Origin: Alicyclobacillus hesperidum
Lineage (GTDB): Bacteria > Bacillota > Bacilli > Alicyclobacillales > Alicyclobacillaceae
NCBI RefSeq assembly: GCF_900107035.1
Contig: NZ_FNOJ01000011.1
Coordinates: 1-64,000 of the forward strand
Length of the DNA: 64,000 bases
Direction: 5' to 3'
Part shown: one piece after another, positions 2,661 through 63,465 of the stretch
Numbering within the stretch: the stretch's first letter is position 1
Layout of the letters: each line of letters opens with the position of its first letter
The notes under the pieces: generated by a model
What the model was told of the DNA's origin: nothing
Databases searched by the model: none
What the model saw: only the letters and a program-made list of their open reading frames with translations
Translations under genes and position numbers: made by a program

Positions 2661-5092
2661 TGTACGCAAGATTTACGGAGCGAGCGCAAAGAGTGTTAGC
2701 CTTGGCGCAAGAAGAAGCGACAAGACTGAGTCATCCAGGAGTGGGCACTGAACATATTCTGCTAGGTCTTGTCCGCGAAGGTGAGGGTATCGCCGCGCGC
2801 GCTTTGCAAATGTTGGGCGTTCAAGCAGATAAAGTGCAACAGGAAGTCGAGCGGATCATCGGCAAAGGCCAGGGTCAAGTCAGCGCGATGACCTACACGC
2901 CGCGCGCCAAAAAGGTGATTGAGCTGTCCATTGATGAGGCTCGCAAGCTCAACCATTCTTATGTCGGCACTGAACATATTCTGCTCGGTCTTATCCGCGA
3001 GGGTGAAGGGGTTGCGGCGCGGGTTTTGGCAAACATGAACGTCAGCTTGAATAAAGCCCGCCAACAGGTGCTGCAACTCCTTGGTGGTGACGCGGTCGAT
3101 CTCGCAGGGGATAAAGACAGCTCAGTAGGTACTCCGACACTCGACAGCCTCGCTCGCGACTTAACGCAGATGGCGCGTGATGGCAAGCTCGATCCGGTGA
3201 TTGGACGCGCCAACGAGATCGAACGCGTGATTCAAGTGTTGTCTCGGCGTACAAAAAACAATCCCGTTCTGATTGGCGAACCTGGCGTCGGTAAGACGGC
3301 TATCGCCGAGGGCCTAGCACAGCGTATTGTGGCCGGAGACATTCCGGAGACGCTGCGCAACAAGCGCGTGATGGTGCTCGATATGGGGACAGTCGTCGCG
3401 GGAACGAAGTATCGCGGTGAATTTGAAGATCGCCTAAAGAAAATCATGGACGAAATTCGGCAGGCGGGTAACATCATTTTGTTTATCGACGAGTTGCACA
3501 CGTTAATTGGTGCGGGCGGCGCCGAGGGTGCAATTGATGCATCCAATATCCTGAAGCCAGCATTAGCCCGTGGGGAACTTCAGTGCATTGGTGCAACCAC
3601 CTTAGATGAGTACCGCAAACATATTGAAAAGGACGCGGCACTGGAACGCCGCTTTCAGCCCATCACGGTCGATCAACCGTCTCCAGAAGAGGCCTTGGAG
3701 ATACTTCGTGGGTTGCGCGATCGTTATGAGGCCCATCATCGCGTAAAAATTACCGATGAGGCTTTGGAAGCCGCTGTGCGGATGTCGGATCGGTACATTT
3801 CGGATCGTTTCTTGCCAGATAAGGCCATCGACCTGATTGATGAGGCAGGTTCGCGCGTGCGCTTGCGGACGCACACTGCACCGCCGAATCTCAAGGAACT
3901 CGAGCAGAAGTTAGAAAAGGTTCGCAGTGAGAAAGATGCTGCTGTGCAAAGTCAGGAGTTTGAACAAGCGGCCAGCTTGCGCGATCAGGAGCAAAAGATT
4001 AAGCAGGAGCTTGAACAATTGAAGGAGCGCTGGCAGCAGACGCAGCAACACGATGATGTCCGGGTTACGGCGGATGACATCGCGCATGTGGTGGCGGCTT
4101 GGACCGGTATACCCGTGAAGCAGTTGGCGCAAGAGGAATCGGAGCGGCTGTTGCATATGGAACAACTTCTGCACGAGCGCGTGATTGGTCAAGATGAGGC
4201 GGTGCAAGCCGTATCGCGTGCCATCAGGAGGGCGCGTGCCGGCTTAAAGGATCCGAAGCGCCCAATTGGCTCTTTCATTTTCCTTGGTCCAACCGGCGTG
4301 GGTAAGACGGAATTGGCACGTGCCTTGGCCGAATCTATGTTTGGCGATGAAGATGCTCTTATTCGCATCGACATGTCCGAGTTTATGGAGCGCCACACGA
4401 CCTCCCGTCTCGTAGGTTCACCCCCGGGATATGTCGGCTACGAGGAGGGCGGGCAACTCACGGAAAAGGTACGCCGTAAGCCCTATTCGGTCGTGTTGCT
4501 CGACGAGATCGAAAAGGCACATCCAGAGGTGTTTAATATCTTGCTGCAAGTGCTGGATGATGGCCGCTTGACCGATGGTAAAGGTAGGACGGTCGATTTT
4601 CGCAACACGGTCATCATCATGACGTCGAACGTCGGAGCTGAGGAGTTGCGCAAAGGTGGAAGTGTGGGTTTCAAGCGCGACGAAAGCAGTCGCTATCTCG
4701 ATATGAAAGACAAGGTCATGCAAGATTTGAAGAAGACGTTTCGCCCTGAGTTTCTCAATCGCATTGACGAAATCATCGTCTTCCACTCACTTGATGAAGA
4801 CCATATCGGCAGGATTGTCGACATGATGGTGCATAACCTCCAGCGTCGCTTGAAGGAACAAGAGATCGAATTTACGCTGACTGACGAGGCTAAGAAATTC
4901 TTGTCCAAGGAAGGATTCGATCCGCAGTATGGCGCACGCCCATTGCAACGGGCGATTGTCCGCCATATCGAGGACCGGCTATCGGAGGCCTTATTGTCCG
5001 GCCAAATTAAGAAAGGCGACAGCGTCGTGTTGGGCCTCGATGGCGATCACCTGCGCATCGAACAGGTCAATCAGCATCCTGTAGGCGTATAA
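2660..5092 (+). CDS. clpC: ClpC, AAA+ unfoldase of the ClpCP protease
   Basis: ClpC is a cytosolic class I Hsp100 ATPase that unfolds substrates for the ClpP peptidase. The 810-residue length is typical. Two Clp-N repeats (about 1-145, each with GTEHILLGL) precede AAA domain 1 with Walker A GEPGVGKT (206-213). A middle coiled coil with a UVR motif (about 420-460) is the McsB/MecA adaptor site. AAA domain 2 carries Walker A GPTGVGKT and the sensor region NRIDEIIVF, and a Clp D2-small domain ends the protein. It starts with TAATG overlap on mcsB and is followed by a terminator at 5115-5154. Confidence 0.97.
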
Positions 5093-59039: not shown

Positions 59040-60869
59040 ATGTGTGGGATTGTCGGCTATATCGGCCCGAGGAATGTTAAGAATGTCGTCGTCGGCGGAT
59101 TGGCGAAGCTCGAGTACCGTGGATATGATTCTGCGGGTATTGCGGCCATCGACAACGGCAACATCAAGGTTGTGAAGTCTGTCGGGCGGCTCGCGAATCT
59201 CGAAGCGAAGCTCGCAGACAGCCCTGTCGATGGCCAGGCGGCAATTGGCCATACGCGCTGGGCGACACATGGCAAACCTTCGGACGAAAACGCACATCCG
59301 CACCAGGACTGTAGCGGTAGGTTCGCGATTGTGCACAATGGTATCGTTGAAAACTACCTGTCCTTACGGGAAGAATTAGTAGCGGCTGGTCACGAATTTC
59401 GCTCTGAAACGGACACGGAAGTCGTGGCACACCTGATTGAAGAAATGTACAATGGCGATTTGTTTCAGACGATGATCGCTGTCGGCAAACGTATTCGCGG
59501 CGCCTACGCGCTCGTCGTGATCGCAAAAGATCATCCTGACGAGATGATTGCGATCCGCAAGGCCAGCCCGATGATTATTGGGCTTGGCGACAAGGAAAAC
59601 TTTGTTGCCTCCGACATTCCAGCGATTCTCGAATACACGCGTGACATTTACGTGATGGAAGATGGCGAAATGGCCATCCTGCGGCGCGACGGTGTCGAGT
59701 GCTTTACACTGAATGGTGAACCTGTCAGCAAAGAGGTCTATCGCGTCACTTGGGATGCAGTGAGCGCAGAGCGCGGGGGTTATCCGCACTTCATGCTCAA
59801 GGAAATCCACGAACAGCCAAAGGCTGTCCGCGACACGCTGCGCGGCCGTGTCTCCGATGACTTAAACCGGGTGACGCTATCTGAGATTGGGCTCGACGAG
59901 GAGCAAATCCGCAATATTGACCGGATTCACATTGTTGCCTGCGGTACGTCGTGGCATGCTGGCCTCGTCGGTAAGGTAGCCATCGAGCAGTTTGCGCGGA
60001 TTCCGGTCGATGTTGAGATTGCATCTGAATATCGCTATGCAGATCCAATTGCAACGGAGAACACGCTGATTATTGCGATCACGCAATCGGGTGAGACGGC
60101 TGACACGCTAGCGGCGATGCGCGAGATGAAGAAGCGCGGATTGCGCGTATTGGCCATCACGAACGTCGTGGGCAGCTCGGCGGCGCGCGAAGCGGACAGC
60201 GTGATCGTCACATGGGCCGGGCCGGAAATCGCGGTTGCGTCAACCAAGGCATACACGACACAGCTTGCGGCACTGTACTTGCTGGCTGTGCACTTTGGAC
60301 AGGTGCGCGGGCAAATTGACGAAGCAACGGCGCACGAAATGATCGAAGCACTTGACAACCTGCCGCAGGTGGTAGAAGCGGTGCTTGATACGGCGCCGCA
60401 AATCGAGTCGTTTGCGCAGCGGTATGCACATGCGCACGACACGTTCTTCATTGGCCGTGGCATTGACTATGCGGTATCGCTTGAAGGTGCCTTGAAATTG
60501 AAAGAGATCTCGTACATCCACGCAGAGGCCTATGCCGCGGGTGAGTTAAAACACGGCACGCTCGCCCTCATCACCGATGGCGTGCCAGTCGTCGCGATCG
60601 CGATGCAGCCAGATCTGTACGAGAAGACAGTGAGCAACATTGTCGAGGTCAAGGCCCGCGGTGCGTTCGTTTTGGCCTTGACTTGGGTGGGTAACGAGGA
60701 CTTGGAGAAGGCGGTGGATGAAGTCATTTACCTGCCGAAGACATTGCCTGCGTTGGCACCGATGGCAGCGGTCATTCCGCTTCAGTTGTTGGCCTATTAC
60801 GCAGCGGTGGCTCGCGGTAATGACGTCGATAAACCGCGGAACCTCGCCAAGAGTGTGACGGTCGAATAA
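59040..60869 (+). CDS. glmS: Glutamine--fructose-6-phosphate aminotransferase (isomerizing)
   Basis: GlmS makes glucosamine-6-phosphate from fructose-6-phosphate and glutamine, the entry to UDP-GlcNAc. The N-terminal Ntn glutaminase starts at Cys2 (MCGIVGYIGPRN), with HTRWATHGKP and HPHQDC. Two SIS sugar-isomerase domains follow (about 285-450 and 455-605). 609 residues. ATG 59040 follows aaggagg by 12 bp, which is long; ATG 59030 is out of frame. The ribozyme at 58865-59020 controls expression. It supplies substrate for GlmM. Confidence 0.97.
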   Translation: MCGIVGYIGPRNVKNVVVGGLAKLEYRGYDSAGIAAIDNGNIKVVKSVGRLANLEAKLADSPVDGQAAIGHTRWATHGKPSDENAHPHQDCSGRFAIVHNGIVENYLSLREELVAAGHEFRSETDTEVVAHLIEEMYNGDLFQTMIAVGKRIRGAYALVVIAKDHPDEMIAIRKASPMIIGLGDKENFVASDIPAILEYTRDIYVMEDGEMAILRRDGVECFTLNGEPVSKEVYRVTWDAVSAERGGYPHFMLKEIHEQPKAVRDTLRGRVSDDLNRVTLSEIGLDEEQIRNIDRIHIVACGTSWHAGLVGKVAIEQFARIPVDVEIASEYRYADPIATENTLIIAITQSGETADTLAAMREMKKRGLRVLAITNVVGSSAAREADSVIVTWAGPEIAVASTKAYTTQLAALYLLAVHFGQVRGQIDEATAHEMIEALDNLPQVVEAVLDTAPQIESFAQRYAHAHDTFFIGRGIDYAVSLEGALKLKEISYIHAEAYAAGELKHGTLALITDGVPVVAIAMQPDLYEKTVSNIVEVKARGAFVLALTWVGNEDLEKAVDEVIYLPKTLPALAPMAAVIPLQLLAYYAAVARGNDVDKPRNLAKSVTVE

Positions 60870-60903
60870 GGCCATTGATTTGGGGGATGGTTGTTGTGTT
60901 CGC

Positions 60904-60962
60904 AAAATGAAGTTCTTCCCCAGTAAAATAAGTTCTTCCCTGAGTAAAATAAGTTGTTCCCT
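60904..60962 (+). repeat. Three tandem 20-21 bp direct repeats after glmS
   Basis: Three near-identical units contain AAAAT-(G/A)-AAGTT-(C/G)-TTCCC: copies at 60904-60921, 60924-60941 and 60945-60962, with period 20 and 21 bp. They lie between the glmS stop and a terminator. The form resembles serial transposase-binding sites at a transposon end. A single inverted copy occurs at about 61189-61206. No transposase gene is adjacent. Confidence 0.72.
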
Positions 60963-60967
60963 ACAGC

Positions 60968-61011
60968 ACGGGTGGGTTCGGGTCAAAAGCCTGAATTCGC
61001 CCGTCTTTTTT
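60968..61011 (+). terminator. Terminator after glmS
   Basis: A 15-bp stem with a few wobbles (60968-60982 with 60990-61004, loop tcaaaag) is followed by TTTTTT. It lies 100 bp past the glmS stop, with the 20-bp repeats in between. Confidence 0.85.
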
Positions 61012-61602
61012 AATGCCTGAGAGCGATGGGCGGGGGAAACTCAGAGCAAAATTTTGAGAGCTACCAGACGCGAAAGAGCCCGACAAATCAAGGATTCCTC
61101 GACCATTTCCGTTCAAAAATACGAAAAAATACATTCCAAAATCTGTTTTCCCTTTACCCTCAAACTCTGCCTTTCCTCCTCGCGCCAGCGAACAACTTCA
61201 TTTTACGCAAAATCGATGAATCTGGAAAAAATTATGGAGAAAAACGGGTGGGAAAAGGCGTGATCTACGGAAGAAATTCATTTGACGATTACATAGTACA
61301 GGGAGCTAAATTTGATTTCAGAAGTCATGGGTTGGATTTGAAGTGGGTGAAAGGGCTAAGGGAGAGTACGGCTCGGCATATAGCCTACTTCTGTGGGGAC
61401 ATGTGATACGGATGGATGGAAGAAATGATCAGAACAGTCGTCAAGGTATCGTGGAGTATGAATCTCCCCTGATTTTCGACATCATTAGCATTGTGATCGG
61501 ATCCCTTGTGCCAAATCAACGTCATTGGAACCAACACAGACTCAAGGGCCAGCGGCTGACACCGGAACCTTCAATTTACGTGTAGTTGGTCATTGTCAGA
61601 GC
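61012..61602. other. Region without a recognisable gene after glmS
   Basis: Short frames are open on the plus strand (for example 61026-61406 and 61343-61585) but none has a ribosome site, a family match or coding-like codon use. The segment looks more AT-rich than neighbouring genes. It contains an inverted copy of the glmS-side repeat (about 61189-61206). It could be decayed mobile DNA. Confidence 0.5.
61189..61206 (-). repeat. Inverted copy of the AAAATGAAGTT repeat
   Basis: Read on the minus strand this is AAAATGAAGTTGTTCGC. It matches the 60904 repeat over about 14 bases. It sits about 285 bp from the first copy and in opposite orientation. Chance is possible for such a short match. Confidence 0.5.
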
Positions 61603-61632
61603 ACGAAAACGCCCCTCGGAATTCCAAGGGGC
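61603..61632 (-). terminator. Terminator of the hsp20 gene
   Basis: On the minus strand GCCCCTTGGAATTCCGAGG then GGC forms a hairpin followed by GTTTTCG. It lies just after the hsp20 stop. The arms (61611-61617 and 61626-61632) pair with one mismatch or wobble. Confidence 0.75.
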
Positions 61633-61648
61633 ATATTGTGCAAGGCGT

Positions 61649-62083
61649 TCAATGAAAATCTACGTCAATCTGTCGACCCATTTGTTTCTGGCTCTTCGGA
61701 ATCCTGACTTCCAGTATTCCGTTCCTGTATGTCGCCTTTGCTCCCGTATCATCTACCGCTGTTGGTAATGGCACCGTGCGCGAGAATTGTCCATAGTATC
61801 GTTCCATACGATGTACGTTTTCGTCCTTGTGCTCGCCCATCCGTTCGATTTTGCCGCTGAGGTGAAGGTGGTTGTCGTGGACAGTGATATTCACGTCTTC
61901 CTTCTTCTCCAACCCAGGGATTTCGGCTGTCACAATCACTTCGTTTTGTGTTTCACGAACATCACAGCGAACCCGTGGCATGTTTGCAAAGTGGTTGTCA
62001 AACCAGTCGTCATCGAACAGTCGGGGAAACGAGCCGAAGTCGCGTCTCATGATGCCAAATGGGTCATAAGGGACTAAGGTCAT
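61649..62083 (-). CDS. Hsp20/alpha-crystallin small heat-shock protein
   Basis: A cytosolic holdase chaperone. The 144-residue protein has a short N-terminal arm. The alpha-crystallin domain (about 38-128) runs from RCDVRETQNEVIVTAEIPGL to the A-x-x-x-N-G-I-L-E-V motif (KATYRNGILEVRIPK), and a short C-tail follows. Start at 62083, with ggaggtg 7 bp upstream on the minus strand. An inverted repeat GTTTCC-N9-GGAAAC overlaps the likely -10 region (TATACT, 62132-62127). No CtsR box was seen. Confidence 0.93.
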   Translation of the reverse strand: MTLVPYDPFGIMRRDFGSFPRLFDDDWFDNHFANMPRVRCDVRETQNEVIVTAEIPGLEKKEDVNITVHDNHLHLSGKIERMGEHKDENVHRMERYYGQFSRTVPLPTAVDDTGAKATYRNGILEVRIPKSQKQMGRQIDVDFH

Positions 62084-62280: not shown

Positions 62281-62601
62281 ATGCGGAAAAATGAATCAGG
62301 ACGGTTTTCGGATGCATCGTTCTTGATCCTTTCAAGTTTGGCGAATGGAGCGAAACATGGATACGCGATGATGGAGGACATTTTGGCGTTCAGTGGTACA
62401 CAACTGGAGCCTGGGACGCTTTATGGTGCGATCACGCGGTTGGAAAAACAAGGTTGGATCGAAGCCCTCCCAACAGAGGATAGGCGCAGACCTTATCGTA
62501 TTACTGCCGAGGGTGTGATGGCACTCCGTAAGCAAGTTGCGACACTGGAGCAGGTTGCTTCGGTCGGGAGAAAGCGATTGGCATCGTTGGAGGGGTTCTA
62601 A
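62281..62601 (+). CDS. PadR-family transcriptional regulator
   Basis: The 106-residue winged-helix protein has the PadR pattern LILSSLANGAKHGYAMMEDI, LEPGTLYGAITRLEKQGWIE and RRRPYRITAEGVMALRK, with a short C-terminal dimer helix. Its stop overlaps the start of the next gene (TAATG), so the two form a regulator-membrane protein pair. The ligand is unknown. Confidence 0.92.
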   Translation: MRKNESGRFSDASFLILSSLANGAKHGYAMMEDILAFSGTQLEPGTLYGAITRLEKQGWIEALPTEDRRRPYRITAEGVMALRKQVATLEQVASVGRKRLASLEGF

Positions 62602-63465
62602 TGCATTGGCTATTACGACTGTATCCTCGCGCCTGGCGGGAGCGGTATGAAGAGGAGATGTTAGCACTTCTTGAACAGCACAAGATTACGCCCGCGACAG
62701 TGGTCGATTTATTGATTGGGGCAATCGACGCAAACCTGAATTACAGTGGAATGGTAGAAGGAGTGGCAGGTATGGTCAATCGGCTCCGCACGAGTGTCGT
62801 GATGGTTTTCTGCGCTTTCATGTTATTCGGAGTCGGGTGGAGTATGCTCCAACGATTGACGGATCCGCTGAATCAGTTCAATGCAGTGGCAACCTACCAC
62901 CCAGAGTTCAGGGTTCTTTTTGATGCAGATTTCGTTGCTGGATGTATATCATTCCTGGCGTTTTTGATTGGTGGATTGCCTGTGTTCTTTATCTCCCTAA
63001 GACGTGCTATCAAACGCAAGCAAAAAAACGTTTTGATAGCCTTTTGGGGTCGCGCTATCGTGTTTGCTGGTAAGCATCCTTGCTACGGCGGCATTGGCGA
63101 ATTGGCATCATGTCGCGTATGCATTGACACACATTGATGTGTTCTTGGGTGGATATGTTGTTTTGATAGCCTTGATGCTGATGATCGGTACGGTTGCAGT
63201 CTCCCTCATGATTACCAGGACAGACTTCCAACTTTCAGAACTCAAGTTCGTATTCTATCCAGAAGTGGTGATCTTGTTCTGCATGGGTGTAGCAGTTGTG
63301 ATGTCAACGATCCTTATTATCGCGATTACCGCTTATGCACCGCAATTGTTTAACACGCAGGATGTAGGTAGTCCCATGTTCATAACAGGTCTGTTCTGCA
63401 TGGCTCTTGGAACCATCTTTGGGACGATGGGAATGAGACGTGGGATGGTTGCTCATATCAACTGA
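62601..63465 (+). pseudogene. Frameshifted membrane protein linked to PadR
   Basis: The first frame (62601-63137) encodes a short soluble head (RLYPRAWRERYEEEMLALLE, the type found beside PadR genes) and two hydrophobic segments. The last meaningful residues are KRKQKNVLIAF. The next frame, open from 63040 to 63465, continues with hydrophobic segments (GVALSCLLVSILATAALAN and further) and ends at a normal stop. The shift of one base falls in TTTTGGGG (63042-63049). Joined, the product would be about 287 residues with about five or six membrane segments. It is either a true inactivation or a base-call error. Confidence 0.8.

Follow-up and report, generated by a model that had tools for sequence, protein, structure and literature searches.

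A Gene-Free Tn7-Like Unit Downstream of glmS in Alicyclobacillus hesperidum and Its Possible Part in the Integration of Genomic Islands

Introduction

Why does the DNA between the glmS gene of Alicyclobacillus hesperidum and the following terminator carry a series of regularly spaced repeats, and to what did they belong? The analysed stretch of DNA, designated below as the window, comprises 64,000 nucleotides of contig C34 of a 2.86-Mb genome assembled in 53 contigs (G000). The initial annotation of this stretch had described three direct copies of a repeat of about 20 bp and one distant inverted copy, had interpreted them as a possible relic of a transposon end, and had named IS21-, Mu-, and Tn7-like elements as its possible sources. 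According to the sections on Tn7 in PMC2918618 this transposon inserts about 20 bp behind glmS, and the corresponding sections of PMC11406308 and PMC2918618 describe a right end with closely set sites, a left end with spaced sites, and a 5-bp duplication of the target. The present analysis concerns the structure of the repeat region, its occurrence in relatives, the genes that accompany it there, and the way in which it may have moved.

The Unit behind glmS

The glmS gene (59040–60869, forward strand) is a 609-aa open reading frame that is 64–99% identical to the gene in relatives, and its 3' end is the attachment site of TnsD in Tn7. After the stop at 60869 and a spacer of 25 bp (60870–60894, forward strand) a left terminus TGTGTTCGC begins at 60895. 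Three direct copies of the AAAAT(G/A)AAGTT(C/G)TTCCC type then follow at 60905, 60925, and 60946 with the described spacing of 20–21 bp, and their triple-repeat score was 42 out of 48, where the best of 300 dinucleotide shuffles scored 31; a sliding scan of the window gave no further place with a score of at least 36. The distant inverted copy was also recovered, at 61190–61207 (18 nt, 89%), together with a second inverted match at 61269–61293 which had been absent from the initial annotation and which is the far end: the right terminus ...ATTTGACGATTACA ends at 61293 and is complementary to the left terminus over 25 nt (80%).

The repeats belong to a unit of 399 bp with both ends, designated as A (60895–61293, forward strand), a miniature Tn7-like element whose full-length copies measure about 502 bp. 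Its TGT...ACA termini and its arrays of about 20-bp TnsB-type sites, predicted from sequence, are those of Tn7-like ends. The glmS-proximal end (60895–60961, forward strand) is compact and Tn7R-like, consisting of TGTGTTCGC and three serial TnsB-type sites at 60904–60920, 60924–60940, and 60945–60961; the distal end (61188–61293, reverse strand) is spread and Tn7L-like, with inverted sites at 61188–61204 and 61268–61284 and the terminus ...TTACA. One of the three distal sites of full-length copies, which in the copy of locus L040 lie at 3146, 3225, and 3329, is missing in the window. A deletion peculiar to the window was rejected as the reason of the 399-bp length, since a copy in A. montanus that a later insertion has split ends alike, and this form of A looks like a shared subtype.

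Between the ends the unit contains a terminator, considered below, and a conserved inner block (61067–61145, forward strand, as mapped onto the window). Over 18 rows used out of 29 aligned A copies the mean conservation at A positions of about 172–260 was up to 0.95, like that of the end sites and the terminator, against 0.72–0.79 in the flanking spacers, and by this conservation the block may be a site of resolution. The 126-aa open reading frame at 61026–61406 was rejected as a gene because its tblastn matches fall on A copies, and the 80-aa frame in the adjoining segment B was rejected as a gene remnant because its good matches are other B copies. No transposase gene was recognised in the list of open reading frames for 55–64 kb, as had been stated for the window.

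Occurrence of the Unit and Its Terminator in Relatives

When the region downstream of glmS was searched in 41 genomes, 60895–61287 was met again as one block, not only behind glmS but also at other places. A full-length A (502 bp, L040:2853–3354) used as the query gave whole or partial matches in 31 genomes, that of the window included, out of 59 searched in the order. Among the named records carrying A, 11 of 13 stretches come from Alicyclobacillus. At 39 glmS loci an A-type end was situated 21–26 bp past the stop in 17, at exactly 25 bp in seven of these, and was absent in G009, G010, G013, G014, and others. One of the 17, in G008, is chimeric: at L070:1706–1750 the native glmS terminator is fused to an A-type end at a common TTCGC, as if by microhomology rejoining. 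The A block of G031 is 85% identical, compared to 65% for its GlmS protein, which points to transfer.

A comparison of the glmS site with an empty relative had been suggested by the initial annotation as a way to find a target duplication. Relatives without the A-type end exist; the window copy, flanked by GTTGT and TAGTA, has no target duplication, its right flank being island interior. The single A at glmS in G017 has none either. Solo copies of A bounded by perfect 5-bp target duplications were found in G003 (CCGAC) and G025 (CAAAC). Among 37 listed A copies the 5-bp flanks matched in 6 of 83 within-genome left/right pairs (0.08 expected) versus 1 of 897 between-genome pairs, where both pair counts include copies with boundaries a few bases off (a second left copy of G043, the G044 copies, and two A. 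montanus copies, namely the right part of an old copy and a short copy), none of them among the six matches.

The terminator noticed behind the repeats, at 60967–61010 (forward strand), folds into a strong hairpin (-26.4 kcal/mol, z -6.47) followed by a run of T; it is carried by A itself just inside its glmS-proximal end and now follows glmS. Other end families at the glmS site also carry a terminator (G001, G003, G005, and G006), and in G018, G020, G029, and G032 a similar terminator follows glmS with sites that are no longer recognisable (G018 and G032 were folded). The retention of the terminator beside decayed sites suggests that glmS needs one. In G009, G010, G013, and G014 a native terminator-like hairpin spans the insertion point (G010 and G013 by folding; G009 and G014 by eye), and the terminator of A would replace the disrupted glmS terminator; glmS probably uses the element-borne one. 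Such elements would thereby bring a replacement terminator for the gene behind which they land.

The glmS site is also occupied by further Tn7-like end families with serial sites and a terminator, partly interrelated (L043, L049, L050, and L075). In G016 (L083:4300–4430) another end family stands beside an A-like copy and shows three AATAAAGT(T/C)GGTAACC repeats followed by terminator-like sequence.

Transposition Genes and the Decayed Island of the Window

A search of relatives for the repeat unit beside tns genes had been proposed, and A was indeed found on islands carrying such genes. The A. acidiphilus contig with a copy of A contains tnsA, tnsB, tnsC, and tnsD. The TnsB of this contig matches Tn7 TnsB (PDB 7pik) with E 6e-108, its TnsA matches Tn7 TnsA with E 2e-41, its TnsD matches the Pfam TnsD family with E 3e-123, and the third protein matches TniB/AAA; TnsB and TnsD of the relatives' islands, as represented by these proteins, are thus homologous to those of Tn7. 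IS21 or Mu ends were set aside as not needed once a Tn7-type TnsB had been found with unit A. Together with the position 25 bp behind glmS and the 5-bp duplications elsewhere, these islands support the idea of a transposon-end relic of the Tn7-like kind.

TnsB of this family occurs in 7 of 17 genomes searched (76–100% identical over aligned parts), and all seven carry A. In the same set of 17, A or its end is present without the family TnsB in G000, G002, G003, G005, G011, G017, G018, and G025, and neither is present in G009 and G013. The TnsB proteins of A. acidiphilus (G004:C77:2528–4705) and A. montanus (G050:C18:53397–55574) are 100% identical, a sequence similarity pointing to recent transfer. 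Behind glmS and directly before tnsA, the genomes G022, G035, and G037 have serial sites whose core is AAA(T/C)AAAGTTGTAT or similar.

In the window genome no TniQ, TnsA, or family TnsB was found by searches that were positive in 12 of 41, 12 of 41, and 10 of 17 genomes, respectively, and its three rve-domain matches are all on contigs other than that of the window. A is therefore without such machinery of its own there: by these searches it is not an autonomous Tn7-like transposon with tns genes in the same genome, and the unit is a relic in G000.

The DNA to the right of A indicates what has been lost. The segment designated as B (61294–61640, forward strand) starts with TAGTACAGGG, is the first segment of the island beside the left A, and also accompanies A in G004, G007, G011, and G012. 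It is followed by hsp20, a probable cargo gene (61649–62083, reverse strand; Pfam HSP20 3.7e-21), and by a padR regulator with its neighbours (62281–63465, forward strand; PadR 4.1e-13), collinear with the island cargo of G012. Compared with this cargo, the window genome shows three collinear blocks, hsp20 and padR included, reaching to about 68.4 kb of C34 with 82–89% DNA identity and separated by unmatched gaps, for example, at 63.5–64.6 kb; most of the last 2.7 kb of the window has its counterpart in the cargo of the related island. Near 70.1 kb genes set in again that G002, G008, and G014 also have around glmS. Since matches to island cargo follow A and are succeeded by the resumed neighbourhood genes, A reads as a left end unit whose tns genes and right end are gone, and the window almost certainly contains the left A and the beginning of the first 7 kb or so of cargo of a decayed Tn7-like island behind glmS. 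As a separate observation, hsp20 accompanies the G012 island on either side and is also found close to A in several genomes, once as a fragment cut by A (L038:16700–16805).

TnsA Substitution and the Tyrosine Recombinase

The residues E63, D114, and K132 are catalytic in Tn7 TnsA. In alignment to this protein every one of the 8 family TnsA copies, which come from 7 genomes, carries Thr in place of D114 and keeps the E63 and K132 positions, so that the residue set of Tn7 cut-and-paste is incomplete. In a sister group of five TnsA copies, one of them partial (L103, L100, L167, L102, and L097), D114 is replaced by Ser or Asn, and the four copies that show the E63 position have Gln there; the glmS-adjacent TnsA proteins of G022, G035, and G037, which belong to the same order, keep both E63 and D114. 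Judging from these sequences, the relatives of the window element seem to have lost an enzyme activity needed for cut-and-paste.

The substitution is accompanied by a particular gene order. A tyrosine recombinase gene is located upstream of tnsA at 8 of 8 family loci and at 3 of 5 sister loci, the other two being L097, which ends inside tnsA, and L102, which showed none. At the three loci with intact TnsA the position upstream of tnsA is held by glmS in place of the tyrosine recombinase. The recombinase could alternatively be a target selector like TnsF.

When the TnsA active site of a related system was mutated, more than 95% of the products were cointegrates (PMC8188705), and in the relevant part of PMC8649781 mutations of the catalytic site are stated to abolish cut-and-paste but not replicative transposition, with a replicative route predicted for branches that possess a resolvase and are devoid of tnsA. 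A TnsA active-site mutation made in the laboratory thus switches a Tn7-type system to cointegrates, and nature appears to have fixed a similar change throughout a lineage together with a recombinase.

Structure of the Islands

Islands in relatives carry A on both sides in the same orientation, that is, as direct copies. Outer A copies with a matching 5-bp duplication were found in four islands: G012 (CCAAG), G043 (ACATA, at glmS), G050 (TTTTA), and G052 (GCTAG). The islands of G012 (65.3 kb) and G052 (73,439 bp) each lie on one contig with the tns genes inside, and the left flank of G052 was read before its right flank was fetched, which then matched GCTAG. The outer A copies sharing a duplication are identical in all four islands, over 502/502, 501/501, 259/259, and 142/142 bp (1,404 bp in total), where the comparable 259 and 142 bp of G043 and G050 reflect left copies cut by later insertions, with the island ends on separate contigs. 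The identity of A between genomes had a median of 80.5% and a maximum of 95.8% in 380 pairs, drawn from 29 aligned copies, several of them truncated, with pairs of more than 120 common columns and with same-genome copies not being independent.

Nonpartner copies inside one genome are 81.7%–97.8% identical in G004, G005, G043, and G050, and the identity between the inner A and the right A is 87.7% in G043 and 85.2% in G050. The four A copies of G012, inner as well as outer, do not differ from one another. G007 contains two identical A copies (501/501 bp) with unmatched flanks (ACTGT and GCTTT), and the A copies of G004 differ by at least 2.2% and show no matching duplication; these two genomes speak against a perfect rule.

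The inner borders of the islands are also recurrent. Of the 28 right flanks of A that could be read, 11 (9 genomes) begin with TAGTA, and of the 35 readable left flanks 11 (9 genomes) end with TTCTA; the two junctions were never met at one A copy, and no circular form was seen. The inverted TAGTACAGGG and CCCTGTTCTA junctions were considered as the ends of a second transposon and set aside, since a fixed position of A in a circle would explain them more simply. The tns genes are situated outside A towards the glmS-distal side in G007, G012, and G052; for G050 the family TnsB was located on contig C18, and contig C32 with the right A carries tns genes of the sister group.

Stacking of islands at glmS is a feature of Tn7-like transposons, and nested or tandem A copies were observed in G004, G005, G012, G043, and G050. 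Near glmS, islands lie inside an older A in G012 (L034:1302–1511 with L037:6836–7135) and in G050 (L122:2020–2137 with L120:3470–3762); insertion into older copies suggests weak target immunity.

The cargo of the G052 island, for which 20 of 62 open reading frames of at least 120 aa were searched against Pfam, includes AbiJ-type and TIR-domain defence proteins, a FokI-like nuclease, a C5 methylase, GmrSD, and a heavy-metal ATPase, and the title of PMC8649781 presents defence genes as common cargo of Tn7-like elements. No replication or conjugation module was recognised in these 20 of 62 frames. One actin-like gene with weak ParM similarity (L169:2624–3613) is located inside this 73-kb island, and its product possibly contributes to keeping a circular form. 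A plasmid collection searched with A gave no match, and an exact-pattern scan of viral contigs gave none.

Possible Mechanism of Island Integration

Replicative cointegration of the island via A is the best explanation of these data and, on balance, a probable one. From what was observed, namely the build and positions of A, the duplications, the identical outer copies, the substitution in TnsA, and the gene order, it can be proposed that the island, designated as T (tnsABCD, the tyrosine recombinase gene, and cargo), would exist as a circle with one A. TnsABC and TnsD would join A to the target, and they would do so by replicative transposition because TnsA is without its catalytic Asp. The product would be a cointegrate A-T-A, in which T lies between identical A copies and a single 5-bp duplication encloses the whole. 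If the two A copies then recombined, for which the tyrosine recombinase acting at the inner block is a candidate, the circle would be set free and one A would stay behind alone. Published descriptions of this reaction, PMC8188705 among them, explain how cutting of one strand at each transposon end places the whole circular donor between two transposon copies with one outer duplication, and the A-T-A picture fits this scheme if A is what transposes and T is the donor. Against cointegration stand the unmatched flanks of the identical G007 copies, the differing G004 copies, the single A of G017 without a duplication, and the failure to see a circular form among the A junctions, the plasmid collection, and the viral contigs.

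Three other readings were weighed against cointegration. Movement of A-T-A as one composite Tn7-like transposon by cut-and-paste through its outer ends, with gene conversion keeping the A copies identical, would fit the outer ends and duplications equally well, and the retained E63 and K132 positions of TnsA are in its favour. The four identical A copies of G012 also agree with it and tell against cointegration, because the inner copies are identical too, as gene conversion or a recent tandem duplication would give. However, the catalytic D114 position is occupied by Thr throughout the family, and in G043 and G050 the longer inner A was not homogenised with the right copy, although the truncated outer partner is identical to it; these inner copies argue against simple gene conversion, and those of G012 do not. 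Composite cut-and-paste is consequently considered rather unlikely. The reading of A as a plain MITE, a mini-Tn7 that spreads alone and that islands entered by homologous recombination of a circle's A with a resident A, draws on the duplication-bounded solo copies of G003 and G025 and on the nested or tandem copies of five genomes. It would require a prior insertion of A for each of the four islands with outer matching duplications, and identical outer copies would be unexpected, since copies within a genome differ by 2–18% apart from those of G012 and the partner pairs, which makes it improbable.

The reading that the repeats are an immobile part of the glmS terminator region can practically be dismissed. 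It would account for their place between glmS and a strong terminator and for the persistence of a similar terminator without the sites in some relatives. Nevertheless, the initial annotation had itself named repeats present at glmS in all relatives and never mobile as the case against a transposon end, and the opposite was found: they are absent behind glmS in G009, G010, G013, G014, and others, A occurs away from glmS with 5-bp duplications and on tns islands, and the A block of G031 exceeds its GlmS in identity. A native terminator part was already contradicted by the target duplications and was rejected.

Replicative cointegration can be extended to a wider reading, which we regard as possible rather than probable. 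The Tn7 lineage of Alicyclobacillus and relatives, deprived of strand cutting by TnsA, would then be an LTR-like integrating element in which the gene-free 0.5-kb A is the sole transposing part; each insertion would copy A to both sides of a circle of 65–73 kb, often behind glmS, site-specific excision would leave a solo A, and the window copy would be a left unit whose right side was lost. If true, a transposon can shrink its moving part to a gene-free unit of 0.5 kb, the accumulation behind glmS of large islands with defence and metal-transport genes would be explained in part, and natural material would be available for testing cointegrate resolution.

Comparison with Known Systems

Earlier work has described MITEs as well as Tn7-like elements that sit at glmS or that transpose replicatively. 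In the literature search, which covered few subscription papers and is weak evidence, no gene-free bipartite 0.5-kb end units flanking a Tn7-like island and no lineage keeping TnsA with a substituted catalytic position were found described, nor was a description found of Tn7 MITEs, composite Tn7 elements, or Tn7-like elements of Alicyclobacillus. The MITE review PMC10969869 names Tn7 in two places, neither of which deals with a MITE of the Tn7 type.

With Tn7 of E. coli and other attTn7 elements the islands share homologues of TnsA, TnsB, and TnsD, insertion just behind glmS, and, in relatives, the 5-bp duplication, and A resembles Tn7 in its compact glmS-proximal end and spread distal end. 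They differ from Tn7 in Thr at TnsA D114, in both ends being enclosed in one unit of 0.4–0.5 kb that stands on both island sides, and in tns genes lying outside this end unit.

IS26-type translocatable units are circles that carry a single copy of the end element and, once integrated, are flanked by direct copies of it; IS26 encodes its own transposase. The integration of a one-copy circle to direct copies on both sides is the point of likeness to A, which in contrast is devoid of a transposase gene, has ends of the Tn7 type, and prefers a particular target.

Bacterial MITEs, as treated in the relevant places of PMC10969869, are likewise small and non-coding with both ends present, and terminator-like elements are mentioned there; unlike them, A also forms both sides of tns-carrying islands. 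A parallel in route is given by the replicative Tn7-like elements with a tyrosine resolvase (branches of clades 2 and 3, as presented in parts of PMC8649781) and by the Tn5053 family, in which a cointegrate route is predicted from TnsA loss and the presence of a resolvase. In those replicative elements tnsA is missing, whereas here tnsA is kept with its catalytic position substituted, and the proposed transposing unit is gene-free.
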